A stretch of DNA of 64,000 nt, taken from positions 1 to 64,000 of the forward strand of contig JAHYIW010000007.1 in NCBI GenBank assembly GCA_019429445.1, written 5' to 3'. This document shows positions 25,652-36,171 of this stretch, in pieces. The position numbers were made by a program, and so were the translations under genes. The notes beneath the pieces were generated by a model. It was not told the DNA's origin, ran no database searches, and saw nothing but the letters and a program-made list of their open reading frames with translations. Position 1 is the first letter of the stretch, and every line of letters begins with the position of its first letter. This stretch comes from Desulfuromonadaceae bacterium (GTDB taxonomy: Bacteria > Desulfobacterota > Desulfuromonadia > Desulfuromonadales > JAHYIW01).

Positions 25652-26047
25652 TCAGCGTGAAACGAAGTGGGAATTGGCTGCAATCTGCAAGGCGATCATC
25701 TTCTGTGCGGGTTTTTCCGATGGCCAGCCGGTGACATTGGCATGATTCCGGTTGCCTGGAACCGGTGCAGCAACCACAGTCAGTTGATGGCCCTGGTATG
25801 TGGCAGTATGATTTTCTGCTCTGCCGTAAAGAGTCTTTCCGATCTGCCGGGCAACATTTTCGGCAATGTCCCAGAGAGCATTATCGTCAAGACCCAGATG
25901 CCTGGTCACGGAGAGATCCGCATGGGGGTGGGGGATAAATGGATCAGCCTTCAAGGTCTGATCATGGCGGATATGCGATTTGTGCAGCACGAACCGAGAC
26001 AAGAGCTCGTCATCGGCAACCGGCGGCATTGTGTCAGCACCTTTCAT
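25652..26047 (-). CDS. Uncharacterised protein, third gene of a TIGR04255 cassette
   Basis: A 131-residue soluble protein with no domain I can name. Notable stretches are DDELLSRFVLHKSHIR, IPHPHADLSVTRHLGL and VVAAPVPGNRNHANVTGWP, followed by a Lys/Gln helix. The His/Asp-rich N-terminal half could bind metal. I have the impression of conserved hypothetical proteins with this pattern in other proteobacteria, but I cannot check. It overlaps the preceding gene by 4 bases (ATGA), making a three-gene coupled unit. Confidence 0.7.
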   Translation of the reverse strand: MKGADTMPPVADDELLSRFVLHKSHIRHDQTLKADPFIPHPHADLSVTRHLGLDDNALWDIAENVARQIGKTLYGRAENHTATYQGHQLTVVAAPVPGNRNHANVTGWPSEKPAQKMIALQIAANSHFVSR

Positions 26048-26547
26048 CGGGCCATAACGCGATGGATCAGGTTCATGATGGCTTCGGGAATTTCACCAAA
26101 GAAGGGTTCGGTGCCGTAAGCCTTACTGCCGCCGATCAGGGCCGCGTAGTGGAGTTCCCCCTCGGGGCTGATACTGGCCGAGAGGGTTCGGTGTGGAGAC
26201 CGATACCATTCCATCGTCAAGTGGCCATCGGCTTCTGCGCCAAGCTCAGGATTGGGGGCGCCCAGTGGAAGAGCCTTGAGGAACTGCGCCGCAAATTGAT
26301 ATGTCTCCTCGGCCACCGGCTCAGCTCCATGACCATCCCAGTTGCCCTCGCGACACTCCACAAATTGCAGCCAAAGCTCATCATCGGTCTTTTTCCCCAG
26401 ACAACCGAAAGTCAAGGAGCTTTTCAGCAACCTGACGCTTTCTTCTGATTTCTGGCTGATGAAGCGCGAGGTTTCGCTGGACGCTCTCGATGATACGGTC
26501 AAGGTACTGGCGTAACGGTTAGCTGGATATGTCATGGCAAAGCTCAT
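26044..26547 (-). CDS. Uncharacterised protein, second gene of a TIGR04255 cassette
   Basis: A 167-residue protein of unknown function. The first ~45 residues are Ser/Thr-rich and look disordered; the rest has ELWLQFVECREGNWDGHGAEP, then ADGHLTMEWYRSPHRTLSAS and GELHYAALIGGSKAYG, a mixed alpha/beta pattern. It overlaps both neighbours by 4 bases each, so it should be made together with the TIGR04255 protein. I cannot assign a fold. Confidence 0.7.
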   Translation of the reverse strand: MSFAMTYPANRYASTLTVSSRASSETSRFISQKSEESVRLLKSSLTFGCLGKKTDDELWLQFVECREGNWDGHGAEPVAEETYQFAAQFLKALPLGAPNPELGAEADGHLTMEWYRSPHRTLSASISPEGELHYAALIGGSKAYGTEPFFGEIPEAIMNLIHRVMAR

Positions 26548-27338
26548 CGCAAGTTCTCCAAGGTTTTCTCTGTGATTGTGCCAAAAAAGATCTTATTTTT
26601 CAACCAGCGCATTTCTGCGAAGCAGCGAGCGAGTTCATCCGTCGGAAAGGCTACTCCCGTCGTGGTAAAGACATCAATGTCAAGAATCAGCCCCGGTCCT
26701 CTGCCTGTGTCAGGGTCAGCCGGCTGAATCGTGCGAATAAAATTGATGGCGTAAGCGTGGCCAGGTACAGCATAGGTTTCATGGTGCATAAAGCCCATGT
26801 AAGGCAGATTCAGCCCTTCAGGTGGCTGGGGTGGATTCTTCACATAGTCGCTCAACTTTGGGTCATCGATTGGCAACTCGATGCGATTGATATAACGTAA
26901 CCCCAACCGGTTGATTTCGACAGGACGGGCAATGTCGCAAAAAATCCGCCAGAGGTCGAAGCCTTCTTCGGCGAAAGTGGTCCAGTCCGGGTAAGGTTCC
27001 AGACGACTGGCAACAAATCCATCTCGATTGAATTGCACAATCTTCTTTTGATCGTCGGACTGAAAACGCAGACCTTTCCACCCCAGATCGCGTACACATT
27101 GTTCCGGGTTGCTACCCGCCGCAATTCTCAATTCATGCTCGAATTCCCGATGTGAATCCAGAAACCGAAAGTCTGCGAGTCGTGGTTCGAGAGCCTGACG
27201 TACAGTCTCTTCCTCGAAGGGCTGACTAGCGTGCGCCCGAATATCCAAGACCGCCTCGATTACAGGGGCCTGCGACAACTGGGGGAATTGTTCGTCGATA
27301 TTGATGGCGATTTTCTGTGCTGGTTTCATATCTGTCAT
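26544..27338 (-). CDS. TIGR04255 family protein
   Basis: A 264-residue protein with the family's N-terminal motif QAPVIEAVLDIRAH, followed by WKGLRFQSDDQKKIVQFNRDGFVASRLEPYPDW (split motif, residues ~84-117) and RLGLRYINRIELP. The family has no established biochemical function; members recur in accessory regions. First gene of the overlapping three-gene set that sits at the left of the island. Confidence 0.8.
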   Translation of the reverse strand: MTDMKPAQKIAINIDEQFPQLSQAPVIEAVLDIRAHASQPFEEETVRQALEPRLADFRFLDSHREFEHELRIAAGSNPEQCVRDLGWKGLRFQSDDQKKIVQFNRDGFVASRLEPYPDWTTFAEEGFDLWRIFCDIARPVEINRLGLRYINRIELPIDDPKLSDYVKNPPQPPEGLNLPYMGFMHHETYAVPGHAYAINFIRTIQPADPDTGRGPGLILDIDVFTTTGVAFPTDELARCFAEMRWLKNKIFFGTITEKTLENLR

Positions 27339-27382: not shown

Positions 27383-28219
27383 TCATTGCTTTGTTTGGGG
27401 TCCCCTGCTCCGTTTGAAGTCGCGGATATCCCGTTCCATGGCCTTTACTTCCTCGGCAAACCATGAGTCGTTGACCAAGCTCGACAAAGCAAATCCTCCC
27501 TGCTCCAGGACTGTCAACATCGTATCGTAGCGGCGCTTGTAAAAATCCCAGGTGGCAAGAGACTTGCTCCTGACTTTTGCGTCTTTGTGAGTACGCATCT
27601 GCTGGTAGATGTCCTTGAGGAAACGAACCTGCCATGGCAAATATGGGAATCCCATCGCCAGAATCGAAGGGTCGAGAACCGGATACTTGCCGCCGCTCAT
27701 TTCGTGGAGTGATTCAAGGGCGCGATTGAGGTAGATGAAAGACAGACCATTCCCGAACGACTCAACCCGGAAGTATTCATTATGGGCGTTGCACGCCGCA
27801 TCAATGAACAGCCCAATTGCCGGGATGTTCTTCTCTTGCAGGTAGGCGTTGACGAGGGCCTGGCCGAAAAAACATTCCACATTCTCAAGCTGATAATGCT
27901 TGAATTTTCCGGACGTAATGATCGCTCTGAAATAGACATCTTGCCCCGTCAGGCGGTGATGCAGATCCTCGGCAAACTCGATGAGATACCAGACCAGGTA
28001 ATTCTTTTTCTCGTCAGTCACCGCAAGCTGATTGTTGTATACCAAAATAGTATCTGAAAACACGATGGTCTTGAATGCCCCATGCAGGTGCACGTTCAAG
28101 CTGTCAATCGTCGCAAAAATCCGTTCGACCTTGCGTGGCTCTTTGATCGCCATCTCCGTGAAGCCAAGAATGTCGATATAGAGCAGGAATTTTTCTGCTG
28201 TCGGATCTTTTTTTTTCAT
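27383..28219 (-). CDS. Class III nucleotide-cyclase-like protein
   Basis: A 278-residue protein whose N-terminal ~170 residues follow the plan of class III nucleotidyl cyclases: a first strand with the metal Asp in FLLYIDILGFTEMA, a second acidic site in IVFSDTILVYN, and RAIITSGKF where cyclases have the VGI-type strand. The C-terminal ~90 residues are helical and basic and match nothing I know. Pycsar-type phage defence uses cyclases of this fold, with an adjacent effector; no obvious TIR or membrane effector is beside this gene. Whether it makes cNMP is unknown. Confidence 0.6.
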   Translation of the reverse strand: MKKKDPTAEKFLLYIDILGFTEMAIKEPRKVERIFATIDSLNVHLHGAFKTIVFSDTILVYNNQLAVTDEKKNYLVWYLIEFAEDLHHRLTGQDVYFRAIITSGKFKHYQLENVECFFGQALVNAYLQEKNIPAIGLFIDAACNAHNEYFRVESFGNGLSFIYLNRALESLHEMSGGKYPVLDPSILAMGFPYLPWQVRFLKDIYQQMRTHKDAKVRSKSLATWDFYKRRYDTMLTVLEQGGFALSSLVNDSWFAEEVKAMERDIRDFKRSRGPQTKQ

Positions 28220-32468: not shown

Positions 32469-32929
32469 AGGCACTCCCCATCGTCATTACGTGCAATGGA
32501 TTCCGCGACTGCGCGCGGAATGACAGGATGTATTGTGACATCCTGCACGAAGTCAGACTTGTCACCCTGCGCGAAGTCAGACTTGTCACCCTGCGCGAAG
32601 TCAGACTTGTCACCCTGCGCGAAGTCGCAGGGTCCAGAATCGATCCAGTCTGCAGCCAGGTCAACCCAGTCCGGGTTGCTCTTTTCAATCAGGTCAATCT
32701 TCCATTGCCTGTTTCGGTTCTTGATCTTCTTCTCAAGACGTATTGCCGAGGCAATATCATCGCCGTGGGCGAACCAGACCAAACGAGTCACATCATATTT
32801 GCTGGTGAACCCCTCAAGCAGATGATGCTTGTGCTGGTATATGCGCTGCTCCAGATTACTGGTAACGCCAGTGTACAAGGTGCCATTTTTCTTACTGGCA
32901 AGAATATACACAAAAGCCTGTTTCGTCAT
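32465..32929 (-). CDS. Single-domain GIY-YIG nuclease with repeat-encoded tail
   Basis: A 154-residue protein. The first ~90 residues are a complete GIY-YIG domain: FVYILASKKNGTLYTGVTSN, the catalytic Arg in EQRIYQHK, the Glu in AIRLEKKIK, then WKIDLIEKSNPDW. The tail (from ~residue 100) is translated 24-bp repeat DNA, giving DFAQGDKS three times, then VIPRAVAESIARNDD. Its start overlaps the KilA-N gene by ATGA and its stop overlaps the methylase start by ATGA. The nuclease part is bracketed by 34-bp inverted repeats (32608-32641 and 32948-32981), which suggests a mobile cassette. Confidence 0.85.
   Translation of the reverse strand: MTKQAFVYILASKKNGTLYTGVTSNLEQRIYQHKHHLLEGFTSKYDVTRLVWFAHGDDIASAIRLEKKIKNRNRQWKIDLIEKSNPDWVDLAADWIDSGPCDFAQGDKSDFAQGDKSDFAQGDKSDFVQDVTIHPVIPRAVAESIARNDDGECL
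32535..32626. repeat. 24-bp tandem array, left
   Basis: Three full copies of GAAGTCAGACTTGTCACCCTGCGC (24 bases) start at 32549, 32573 and 32597, with partial copies at both ends. Because 24 is a multiple of 3 the array stays open in frame and encodes DFAQGDKS repeats in the GIY-YIG tail. The array extends outward from the left 34-bp inverted-repeat arm. Next to it (32497-32526) is a related palindrome (ATTCCGCG..CGCGCGGAAT). Confidence 0.9.
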
Positions 32930-32981
32930 TGCACACCTGCCAGAATAGATTCTGGATCCTGCGACTTCGCGCAGGATGACA
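32608..32981. mobile_element. Putative mobile unit: GIY-YIG gene between 34-bp inverted repeats
   Basis: The left arm (32608-32641) and right arm (32948-32981) are inverted copies matching at 32 of 34 positions. Each contains the palindrome CCTGCGACTTCGCGCAGG and ends in TGACA. The 306 bases between them hold just the start and catalytic domain of the GIY-YIG gene. The arms lead outward into 24-bp tandem arrays. No transposase is present, so movement by the encoded nuclease is inference. Confidence 0.6.
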
Positions 32982-33387
32982 CGAAATGCTCCGCGCAGGA
33001 TGACACGAAATGCTCCGCGCAGGATGACACGAAATGCTCCGCGCAGGATGACACGAAATGCTTCGCGCAGGATGACACGAAATGCTTCGCGCAGAATGAC
33101 ACGAAATGCTCCGCGCAGAATGACTCAATTGTTTTGTTCCCCTTGCTGCCGGATTGATTTTTAACCGTATCGAATTCGACACGGTTAAAATTCGGATTAT
33201 TCAACATCTTCCAAATACCCAGGAATTCGATGGATGAACGCGTACGCATCCAGTTCTGGATGACAAACCTCGGATCATCGGCATTCTTGAACTTGGCGAT
33301 ATCCGTCAGAGAAATAAAATCATCCTGATCAATCCTCTGGATGCGGATGGTTTCATTTAACACAACAATCTGGCTGTTCTTGCTCAT
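32926..33387 (-). CDS. KilA-N domain protein, C-terminal part replaced by tandem repeats
   Basis: A 153-residue product. Residues 1-~85 match the start of a KilA-N DNA-binding domain (DDFISLTDIAKFKNADDPRF, NWMRTRSSIEFLGIW, NPNFNRVEFDTVKNQSGS). The expected second half of the domain (the region with a Trp-Ile motif and an Ala-rich helix) is absent. From ~residue 92 the protein is eight-residue repeats of the CAEHFVSS type, encoded by the 24-bp array. It is probably a truncated, non-functional gene whose frame is kept open by the repeats. It overlaps the GIY-YIG start by 4 bases. Confidence 0.75.
   Translation of the reverse strand: MSKNSQIVVLNETIRIQRIDQDDFISLTDIAKFKNADDPRFVIQNWMRTRSSIEFLGIWKMLNNPNFNRVEFDTVKNQSGSKGNKTIESFCAEHFVSFCAKHFVSSCAKHFVSSCAEHFVSSCAEHFVSSCAEHFVSSCAKSQDPESILAGVQ
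32969..33124. repeat. 24-bp tandem array, right
   Basis: Units beginning GCGCAGGATGACACGAAATG start at 32969, 32993, 33017, 33041, 33065, 33089 and 33113 (six full, one half). Point differences (CTCC or CTTC, GG or GA) separate the copies. The first 13 bases match the left array unit read on the other strand; the other 11 bases differ. The array extends outward from the right inverted-repeat arm into the KilA-N gene. Confidence 0.95.
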
Positions 33388-35094: not shown

Positions 35095-36171
35095 TCATGC
35101 CCCGTTATTCCCGTCCAACAGCTTTTTTATTTCCCGGTCAAAATCAGACTCAAAAAGCCGGTCTTGAATAGGTCGGTATTTTTCAAATTCGCTTTCGGCA
35201 AACGATTTGGCTATCTCAGCGGTTACTTTGCCTGCGTCCTGCAAGATTTCTGCGTCATTAAATTTCAAAAAAGCGTTCAACTTATCTGCCCAGTCATTCA
35301 TGGTCATGGGAATACCCCGTTCTGCCTGATTTTCTGCATAATCGAGGTACATAGTGACAATTCTATTTAAAAACTTGATCTCTTTTTCATTCAGATAATT
35401 TTTCGCAATCACAACATCTGATTTTAATATTTTTCCTTCGGGAGCTTTTTCCCATGTCGTAAGACCCATAAAATCTTTTTGATGATTGACACGATTCACA
35501 ATAAGTTCAGCAGCAGTGTGACCGTGGGTGGCAAAATGCATTTTATTTTGGACTGTCGCAAAAAATGTTTTTGTTGTAGGTGAATGCAGATCATAATCGA
35601 GTGCGGTGGCGTATATATCAGTAATCTGCTGATAAAAATTACGCTCGCTTTCCCTGATATCACGAATTTCAAGAATCAAATCCTTGAAATATTGGTTGCT
35701 TAGAAATGCACCATTTTTGAGGCGAATATTATCGAGAACATATCCACGAAGTGTAAAATCTTTTAAAACTTGCCCTGCCCATTTTCTAAAATGAGTAGCT
35801 CGTTCTGAATTGACCCGAAAACCAACGGCAATGATACCCTGCAAACCATAATGTTCGATTTTTCGGGTAACTTCACGGGTCCCTTCGTTTTGAACTATTC
35901 GAAATTTTCGAATAGTTGCCTCAGATTGCAGTTCCCCGGTATTAAATATTTCCTTCAGGTGATAGTTAATCGTATTGACCTCAACGCCAAAGAGCTTGGC
36001 AATGAGCTTTTGAGTAAGCCAGACGTTTTCATCTTCGACACGAACTTCAATATCATCTTCGCCAGCCTGACTGGTGAAAATCAAAAATTCCGCCGTTGAA
36101 TTACGAATACGTAATTGTGGATTATGGTTAAGCTCAGATAAATCGGGCGTTGCCATCTTTAATTTATCCAT
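35095..36171 (-). CDS. rhuM: RhuM family protein
   Basis: A 358-residue protein of the RhuM family. It begins with DIEVRVEDENVWLTQKLIAKLFGVEVNTINYHL (split; a winged-helix-like stretch), then EVTRKIEHYGLQGIIAVGFRV and FRKWAGQVLKDFTLRGYVLD, the family core, and a helical C-terminal half with HFATHGHTAAELIVNRV and YLDYAENQAERGIPMTM. First described on a Salmonella pathogenicity island; a role in virulence is not proven and many members sit in defence islands. Its AT-rich codons suggest recent acquisition. It marks the right edge of the island beside aroK. Confidence 0.88.
   Translation of the reverse strand: MDKLKMATPDLSELNHNPQLRIRNSTAEFLIFTSQAGEDDIEVRVEDENVWLTQKLIAKLFGVEVNTINYHLKEIFNTGELQSEATIRKFRIVQNEGTREVTRKIEHYGLQGIIAVGFRVNSERATHFRKWAGQVLKDFTLRGYVLDNIRLKNGAFLSNQYFKDLILEIRDIRESERNFYQQITDIYATALDYDLHSPTTKTFFATVQNKMHFATHGHTAAELIVNRVNHQKDFMGLTTWEKAPEGKILKSDVVIAKNYLNEKEIKFLNRIVTMYLDYAENQAERGIPMTMNDWADKLNAFLKFNDAEILQDAGKVTAEIAKSFAESEFEKYRPIQDRLFESDFDREIKKLLDGNNGA

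Follow-up and report, generated by a model that had tools for sequence, protein, structure and literature searches.

We have analysed a window of 64,000 nucleotides from a Desulfuromonadaceae bacterium (assembly GCA_019429445.1, contig JAHYIW010000007.1), which contains on its minus strand a set of three overlapping genes, termed g1, g2 and g3. This triple is mobile, associated with defence genes, and constitutes a new three-gene version built around PDC-M32, a catalogued but unvalidated defence candidate. We see an even chance that it functions as a mobile abortive-infection cassette, consisting of an effector with an ADP-ribosyltransferase (ART)-like fold, its inhibitor and a sensor or stabiliser.

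A conserved set of three genes

The first gene of the set, g1 (26544..27338), encodes a protein of 264 amino acids that is a clear member of the family TIGR04255, matching the NCBIfam model at an E-value of 8e-38 and with 130.7 bits over model positions 2-251 of 252, compared to a curated cut-off of 30 bits. It is followed by g2 (26044..26547, 167 amino acids), which carries a 'WDGYGA' domain, and by g3 (25652..26047, 131 amino acids), with a predicted minimal ART-like fold. Both joins consist of a 4-base ATGA overlap, and the three open reading frames are located exactly where the first-pass annotation of the window had placed them. Its assertion that the first gene alone has a named family holds equally, g2 being without a match in Pfam or NCBIfam and g3 without one in Pfam, NCBIfam, PADLOC or PHROGs. 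Near the module, no RNA families were detected, and promoter and terminator scans gave weak consensus matches only.

The unity of the set is manifested in its recurrence. When 194 genomes of the class were searched independently with each of the three genes, all were found in the identical six genomes, adjacent in each, and none in the only other genome of the same genus among those searched. A g3 profile compared against about 85,000 species genomes identified 18 loci, three of them in genomes already covered by the class scan. Where the contig extends far enough upstream, as at 15 of these loci, g1, g2 and g3 are invariably present in this order, the remaining three being cut by contig ends. 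The organisms carrying these loci belong to Desulfuromonadales, Syntrophaceae, other Proteobacteria, Nitrospirota, Verrucomicrobiota, Planctomycetota, Zixibacteria and others, and the triple is spread over at least six phyla. Five canonical triples absent from the class scan were retrieved from 395 genomes of the phylum, one of which (L071) is the same sequence as L032, together with three triples with diverged first genes and further g3 matches that are cut by contig ends or decayed in appearance. One contig in IMG/VR (L044) contains the triple; a search of plasmids returned neither g2 nor g3 and, for g1, three distant TIGR04255 proteins, and a search of phages did not return g1. Except for loci cut by contig ends or visibly decayed, the gene order is conserved throughout, and both 4-base overlaps are kept in 12 of 19 triples, a conservation that rules out a chance tandem overlap of three genes.

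The divergence of the three proteins is also coupled, as seen in the correlation of their pairwise identities from locus to locus (Mantel r 0.70-0.89, 0 of 2000 permutations). The same genes, found in the same order in the same genomes and with correlated divergence, strongly support the proposal, initially made from their tight coupling, that they form one conserved complex or pathway, and the outcome that would have spoken against it, genes not found together elsewhere, did not arise. In the tree of g1, phyla are intermixed, with Verrucomicrobiota placed within a Pseudomonadota/Syntrophaceae group at a support of 98/96, which indicates horizontal transfer. Together with the patchy distribution and the absence from the other searched genome of the genus, this mixing of phyla identifies the triple as mobile.

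Association with restriction-modification and other defence genes

The initial assignment as a defence module was based on location alone, a basis that is now superseded by a statistical association with type I restriction-modification (R-M) genes, by the homology of g2 and g3 to a PADLOC candidate and by the ART-like model of g3. As a control, the domains of hsdS, the type I restriction specificity gene, were located in 13 genomes containing the module or its variants, with tandem domains merged by hand. In four of these an hsdS is located within 10 kb of the module, where 0.26 would be expected from hsdS number and genome size (P ~8e-5). At two loci (L029 and L036) the triple resides between hsdS and hsdR, at others it is preceded by hsdM-hsdS-hsdR (L021) or hsdR-hsdS (L026) or followed by hsdM-hsdS-hsdR (L031), with individual hsd genes partly named by eye. 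The genomes in which it is found beside hsd operons are G012, G181, G162 and G388. Elsewhere the module is accompanied, for instance, by BrxC/D (L043), by an AAA_21 ATPase and its small partner (L034) or, directly after g3, by a macro-domain gene of a class that removes ADP-ribose (L040).

This proximity could also reflect an accessory function in R-M, in which the three proteins would interact with the R-M enzyme, regulate it or become active only once restriction is blocked, in a manner similar to PrrC in its hsd locus. According to PMC2610378, PrrC is kept silent by the type I enzyme linked to it and switched on by an anti-restriction factor of the phage. The location between hsdS and hsdR, the neighbouring hsd operons and, in the window, the position of the triple behind a pair of Eco57I-type methylase and ResIII helicase are all compatible with such a role. 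However, nine of the 13 genomes contain no hsdS within 10 kb, the R-M type varies by locus and the triples at L027, L030 and L042 are found among unrelated genes. We regard this explanation as unlikely.

Relationship to PDC-M32

The triple had been proposed to be a new module. This applies to the three-gene set, though not to all of its components, since both g2 and g3 are distantly related to PDC-M32, a phage-defence candidate in PADLOC composed of proteins A and B, for which we found no experimental validation with the tools used and a single listing in the literature, in Sinorhizobium prophages. The protein g2 matches PDC-M32A weakly and in its C-terminal part only (E 5.6e-5, profile positions 266-333 of 375), and the relationship to the M32A C-terminus is confirmed by hhalign at an E-value of 6.4e-8. 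In PDC-M32A an N-terminal domain (~1-250) is joined to the WDG C-terminal domain, and g2 contains no equivalent of the former. The window g3 has no direct match in PADLOC; an intermediate, the g3 of L061, matches PDC-M32B at 5.7e-7, and hhalign relates window-type g3 proteins to M32B-like proteins at 1.5e-8 (1.8e-5 for a six-row profile alone), with identities of ~18-25%. Full-length pairs of M32A and M32B are found on plasmids of Limnohabitans, Rhodococcus and Rhizobium. In both systems a small gene is located directly downstream of a WDG-domain gene, and g3, as a remote homologue of M32B, shares its Glu, Arg, Ser and His residues, whereas PDC-M32 comprises two genes instead of three and contains a fused, unrelated M32A N-terminal domain in place of the separate TIGR04255 protein.

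The region preceding the WDG domain varies between systems. At L060 (920-2259, minus strand), the M32A N-terminal domain is encoded as a separate gene of 307 amino acids that overlaps the gene of a PIN-domain toxin. From this arrangement, PDC-M32A would seem to be an inhibitor made of several parts, with an exchangeable head and a WDG C-terminal domain that pairs with the ART-like partner. The first genes of two variant triples (L065:522-1148 and L061:2177-2914) are not matched by TIGR04255 and resemble g1 by eye in length and strand pattern. With hhalign, the comparison of g1 with the L065 head is borderline (E 0.04, in the right register), and those with the diverged L061 heads and with the M32A N-terminal domain (E 0.07) are not significant. 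We infer that the heads are exchangeable, with the M32A N-terminus found in PDC-M32, TIGR04255 in the triple described here and diverged heads of 208-245 amino acids in L065 and L061, a modularity that would be expected of sensor-inhibitor-toxin systems.

Predicted fold and site of g3

When the AF2 model of g3 (pLDDT 93.3) was compared with known structures by VIA-align, the first 22 rows were all chains of the ART fold, including KptA/Tpt1 (Z 8.0-8.4 for 98 aligned residues, a value of ~8 being near the level reachable by unrelated folds), HopF2 (6.9), enterotoxin A subunits (~4) and ParT (3.2). A direct sequence relative of g3 was not found among PDB chains. The protein covers essentially the NAD lobe of Tpt1 (residues 86-182 of CthTpt1), a lobe whose homology to ADP-ribosylating toxins has been noted (PMC6333775). 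It shares its predicted fold with the Tpt1/KptA NAD lobe, ParT/RES and HopF2, including an Arg and a Ser on equivalent core strands, but it lacks the RNA lobe and the Arg-His-Arg-Arg tetrad, and the usual Glu is replaced by His.

The sole residues that are invariant across g3, its variants and the full-length plasmid PDC-M32B proteins are Glu14 and Arg18 (25994..26008, minus strand), at the start of and on β-strand 1 (residues 15-20), Ser46 (25910..25912, minus strand) on β-strand 2 (45-49) and His102 (25742..25744, minus strand) on the core strand 102-106. Two motifs, H-Y-E and R-S-E, serve to classify ART folds, with the Glu as key catalytic residue (PMC8883491). Arg18, present in 23 of 23 rows of the wider g3 set that have a residue there, and Ser46 are found at the R and S positions of R-S-E ARTs, and His102, present in 24 of 24 rows and in all PDC-M32B-like proteins, approximately where these ARTs have their catalytic Glu, as judged from strand order rather than from a residue-level superposition. 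We describe g3 as a protein with a predicted ART-like fold and a predicted four-residue site which, with Arg and Ser on the expected strands and His in the place of Glu, contains neither of the two classical triads.

The His at the apparent Glu position makes catalysis uncertain, and g3 might instead be a non-catalytic ART-like sensor of NAD or ADP-ribose, with activity residing in g1 or a host factor. The replacement of Glu in every row agrees with this interpretation. Conversely, as the only residues invariant between g3 and PDC-M32B, the four positions resemble an active site more than a scaffold, and Tpt1 works with its ART lobe through a different set of residues, so that we regard a purely binding role as quite improbable. 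Despite the KptA/Tpt1 chains being its best structural rows and its likeness to their NAD lobe, it is very improbable that g3 is an RNA-repair or NAD-dependent RNA-processing enzyme of this kind within a repair or housekeeping operon, as its 131 residues span the NAD lobe only, without the second lobe and the tetrad, and the triple is patchy and island-bound, unlike housekeeping genes.

Predicted structure and partners of the TIGR04255 protein

The AF2 model of g1 (pLDDT 92.8) consists of two halves, each a β-sheet plus helix, and is predicted to adopt a duplicated TBP-like saddle fold. An internal repeat is not detectable from sequence. Guanido kinases and TBP rank best among its structural matches (Z up to 8.3). 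With Foldseek, TBP receives probabilities of mostly 0.8-0.99 at E-values between about 2e-3 and 2e-2, and viral TBP-like proteins are among the matches. Neither this model nor that of g3 matched a known non-defence pathway. By sequence, g1 retrieved from the PDB only KCNQ1 fragments (E 0.01-0.05), which we take as chance matches.

TIGR04255 is a family named without a function, on which our literature search found no paper and whose members elsewhere stand alone or with other partners. In four genomes of the class, the TIGR04255 gene is accompanied by a different pair, encoding proteins of ~105-117 and ~200-213 amino acids (L045:1486-3158, L048:1483-3185, L051:559-2238 and L052:1483-3159). The larger partner carries an 'LSN(T/S)CD' motif and its L045 copy has no match in Pfam or NCBIfam; a related two-gene form (LSQECDL) is found at L058. 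Such alternative partners would fit a toxin-inhibitor design whose parts can be exchanged. On a Vibrio plasmid (L085:158-2105), a TIGR04255 gene precedes one for a hypothetical protein of 179 amino acids and one whose annotation is zeta toxin family; these two might be a further effector pair headed by TIGR04255.

Proposed mechanism

In the cassette that we propose, g3 would serve as a small ART-like effector acting on NAD+, which it would either consume or use for the modification of a cell component, and would be expected to be catalytic and toxic. The proposed antitoxin g2 would bind g3 and keep it off, and g1, as sensor or stabiliser, would hold the complex of both inactive until a phage cue leads to release; the connection to phage is drawn from genomic association. 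A logical, though not homologous, parallel is found in CmdTAC, a toxin-antitoxin-chaperone system in which capsid protein is sensed by a chaperone, the antitoxin undergoes degradation and the ART toxin is freed (PMC11618068); g1 would correspond in function to CmdC. Both are three-gene modules and, as proposed here, would share an ART-like effector, an inhibitor and a sensor. They differ in gene order, CmdT, an mRNA ADP-ribosyltransferase, is no shown relative of g3, and neither g1 and SecB nor g2 and CmdA showed detectable homology.

Several observations weigh against this proposal. The ART match of g3 was obtained from the second aligner, Foldseek giving no significant match for the same model (best E 0.6), and with the usual catalytic Glu missing, the protein could be a non-catalytic binder of NAD or nucleotides. 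The structure models cover g1 and g3. For g1, which is without a Pfam match, no SecB appeared among the structural rows, no match is decisive, and the predicted saddle fold says nothing of function. TIGR04255 proteins occur without g2 and g3 in nine of 15 genomes, and the absence of a nearby hsdS from most genomes also counts here.

A more far-reaching version, which we consider rather doubtful, would define a new three-protein immune family, in which a TIGR04255 sensor controls an inhibitor-bound minimal ART, the R-S-His site represents a new catalytic class and the sensor is reused across unrelated effector pairs.

Other features of the island

The triple was described as lying at the edge of an island full of restriction and toxin-antitoxin genes. 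The island is present but smaller than this implies, reaching from about 25.6 to 36.2 kb of the window. It harbours an Eco57I-type methylase paired with a ResIII helicase, the remnant of a methylase and, at its far end, a RhuM-family gene (35095-36171, minus strand; PF13310, E 1.6e-108) that adjoins shikimate-pathway genes. It is flanked by core genes, which were named by eye as rubrerythrin, sfsA, aroE/aroK and trp. Upstream of g1 follow a protein of 278 amino acids, the ResIII helicase protein and the Eco57I-type methylase. The gene of the first of these (27383-28219, minus strand) is located 44 bases upstream of g1, and was kept out of the module because inspection by eye did not reveal it next to the other listed triples. 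Its product has no Pfam or NCBIfam match, a weak match to phrog_23933 (E 6e-4) and, by eye, a similarity to degenerate nucleotide-cyclase-like 'IDILGF' proteins. The island further contains two arrays of 24-bp tandem repeats (32542-32626 and 32968-33124; 3.5 and 6.5 copies, 97-98% match), and open reading frames crossing them are probably spurious.

Implications for TIGR04255, PDC-M32 and phage defence

With this proposal, both TIGR04255, a family with a name, and PDC-M32, which is catalogued but unexplained, receive a role that can be tested. Should g3 prove active as an ART while lacking the catalytic Glu, it would widen the ADP-ribosylation chemistry employed in phage defence, beside DarT and CmdT, and exchangeable head and effector genes would permit a comparison of sensor specificity across systems.
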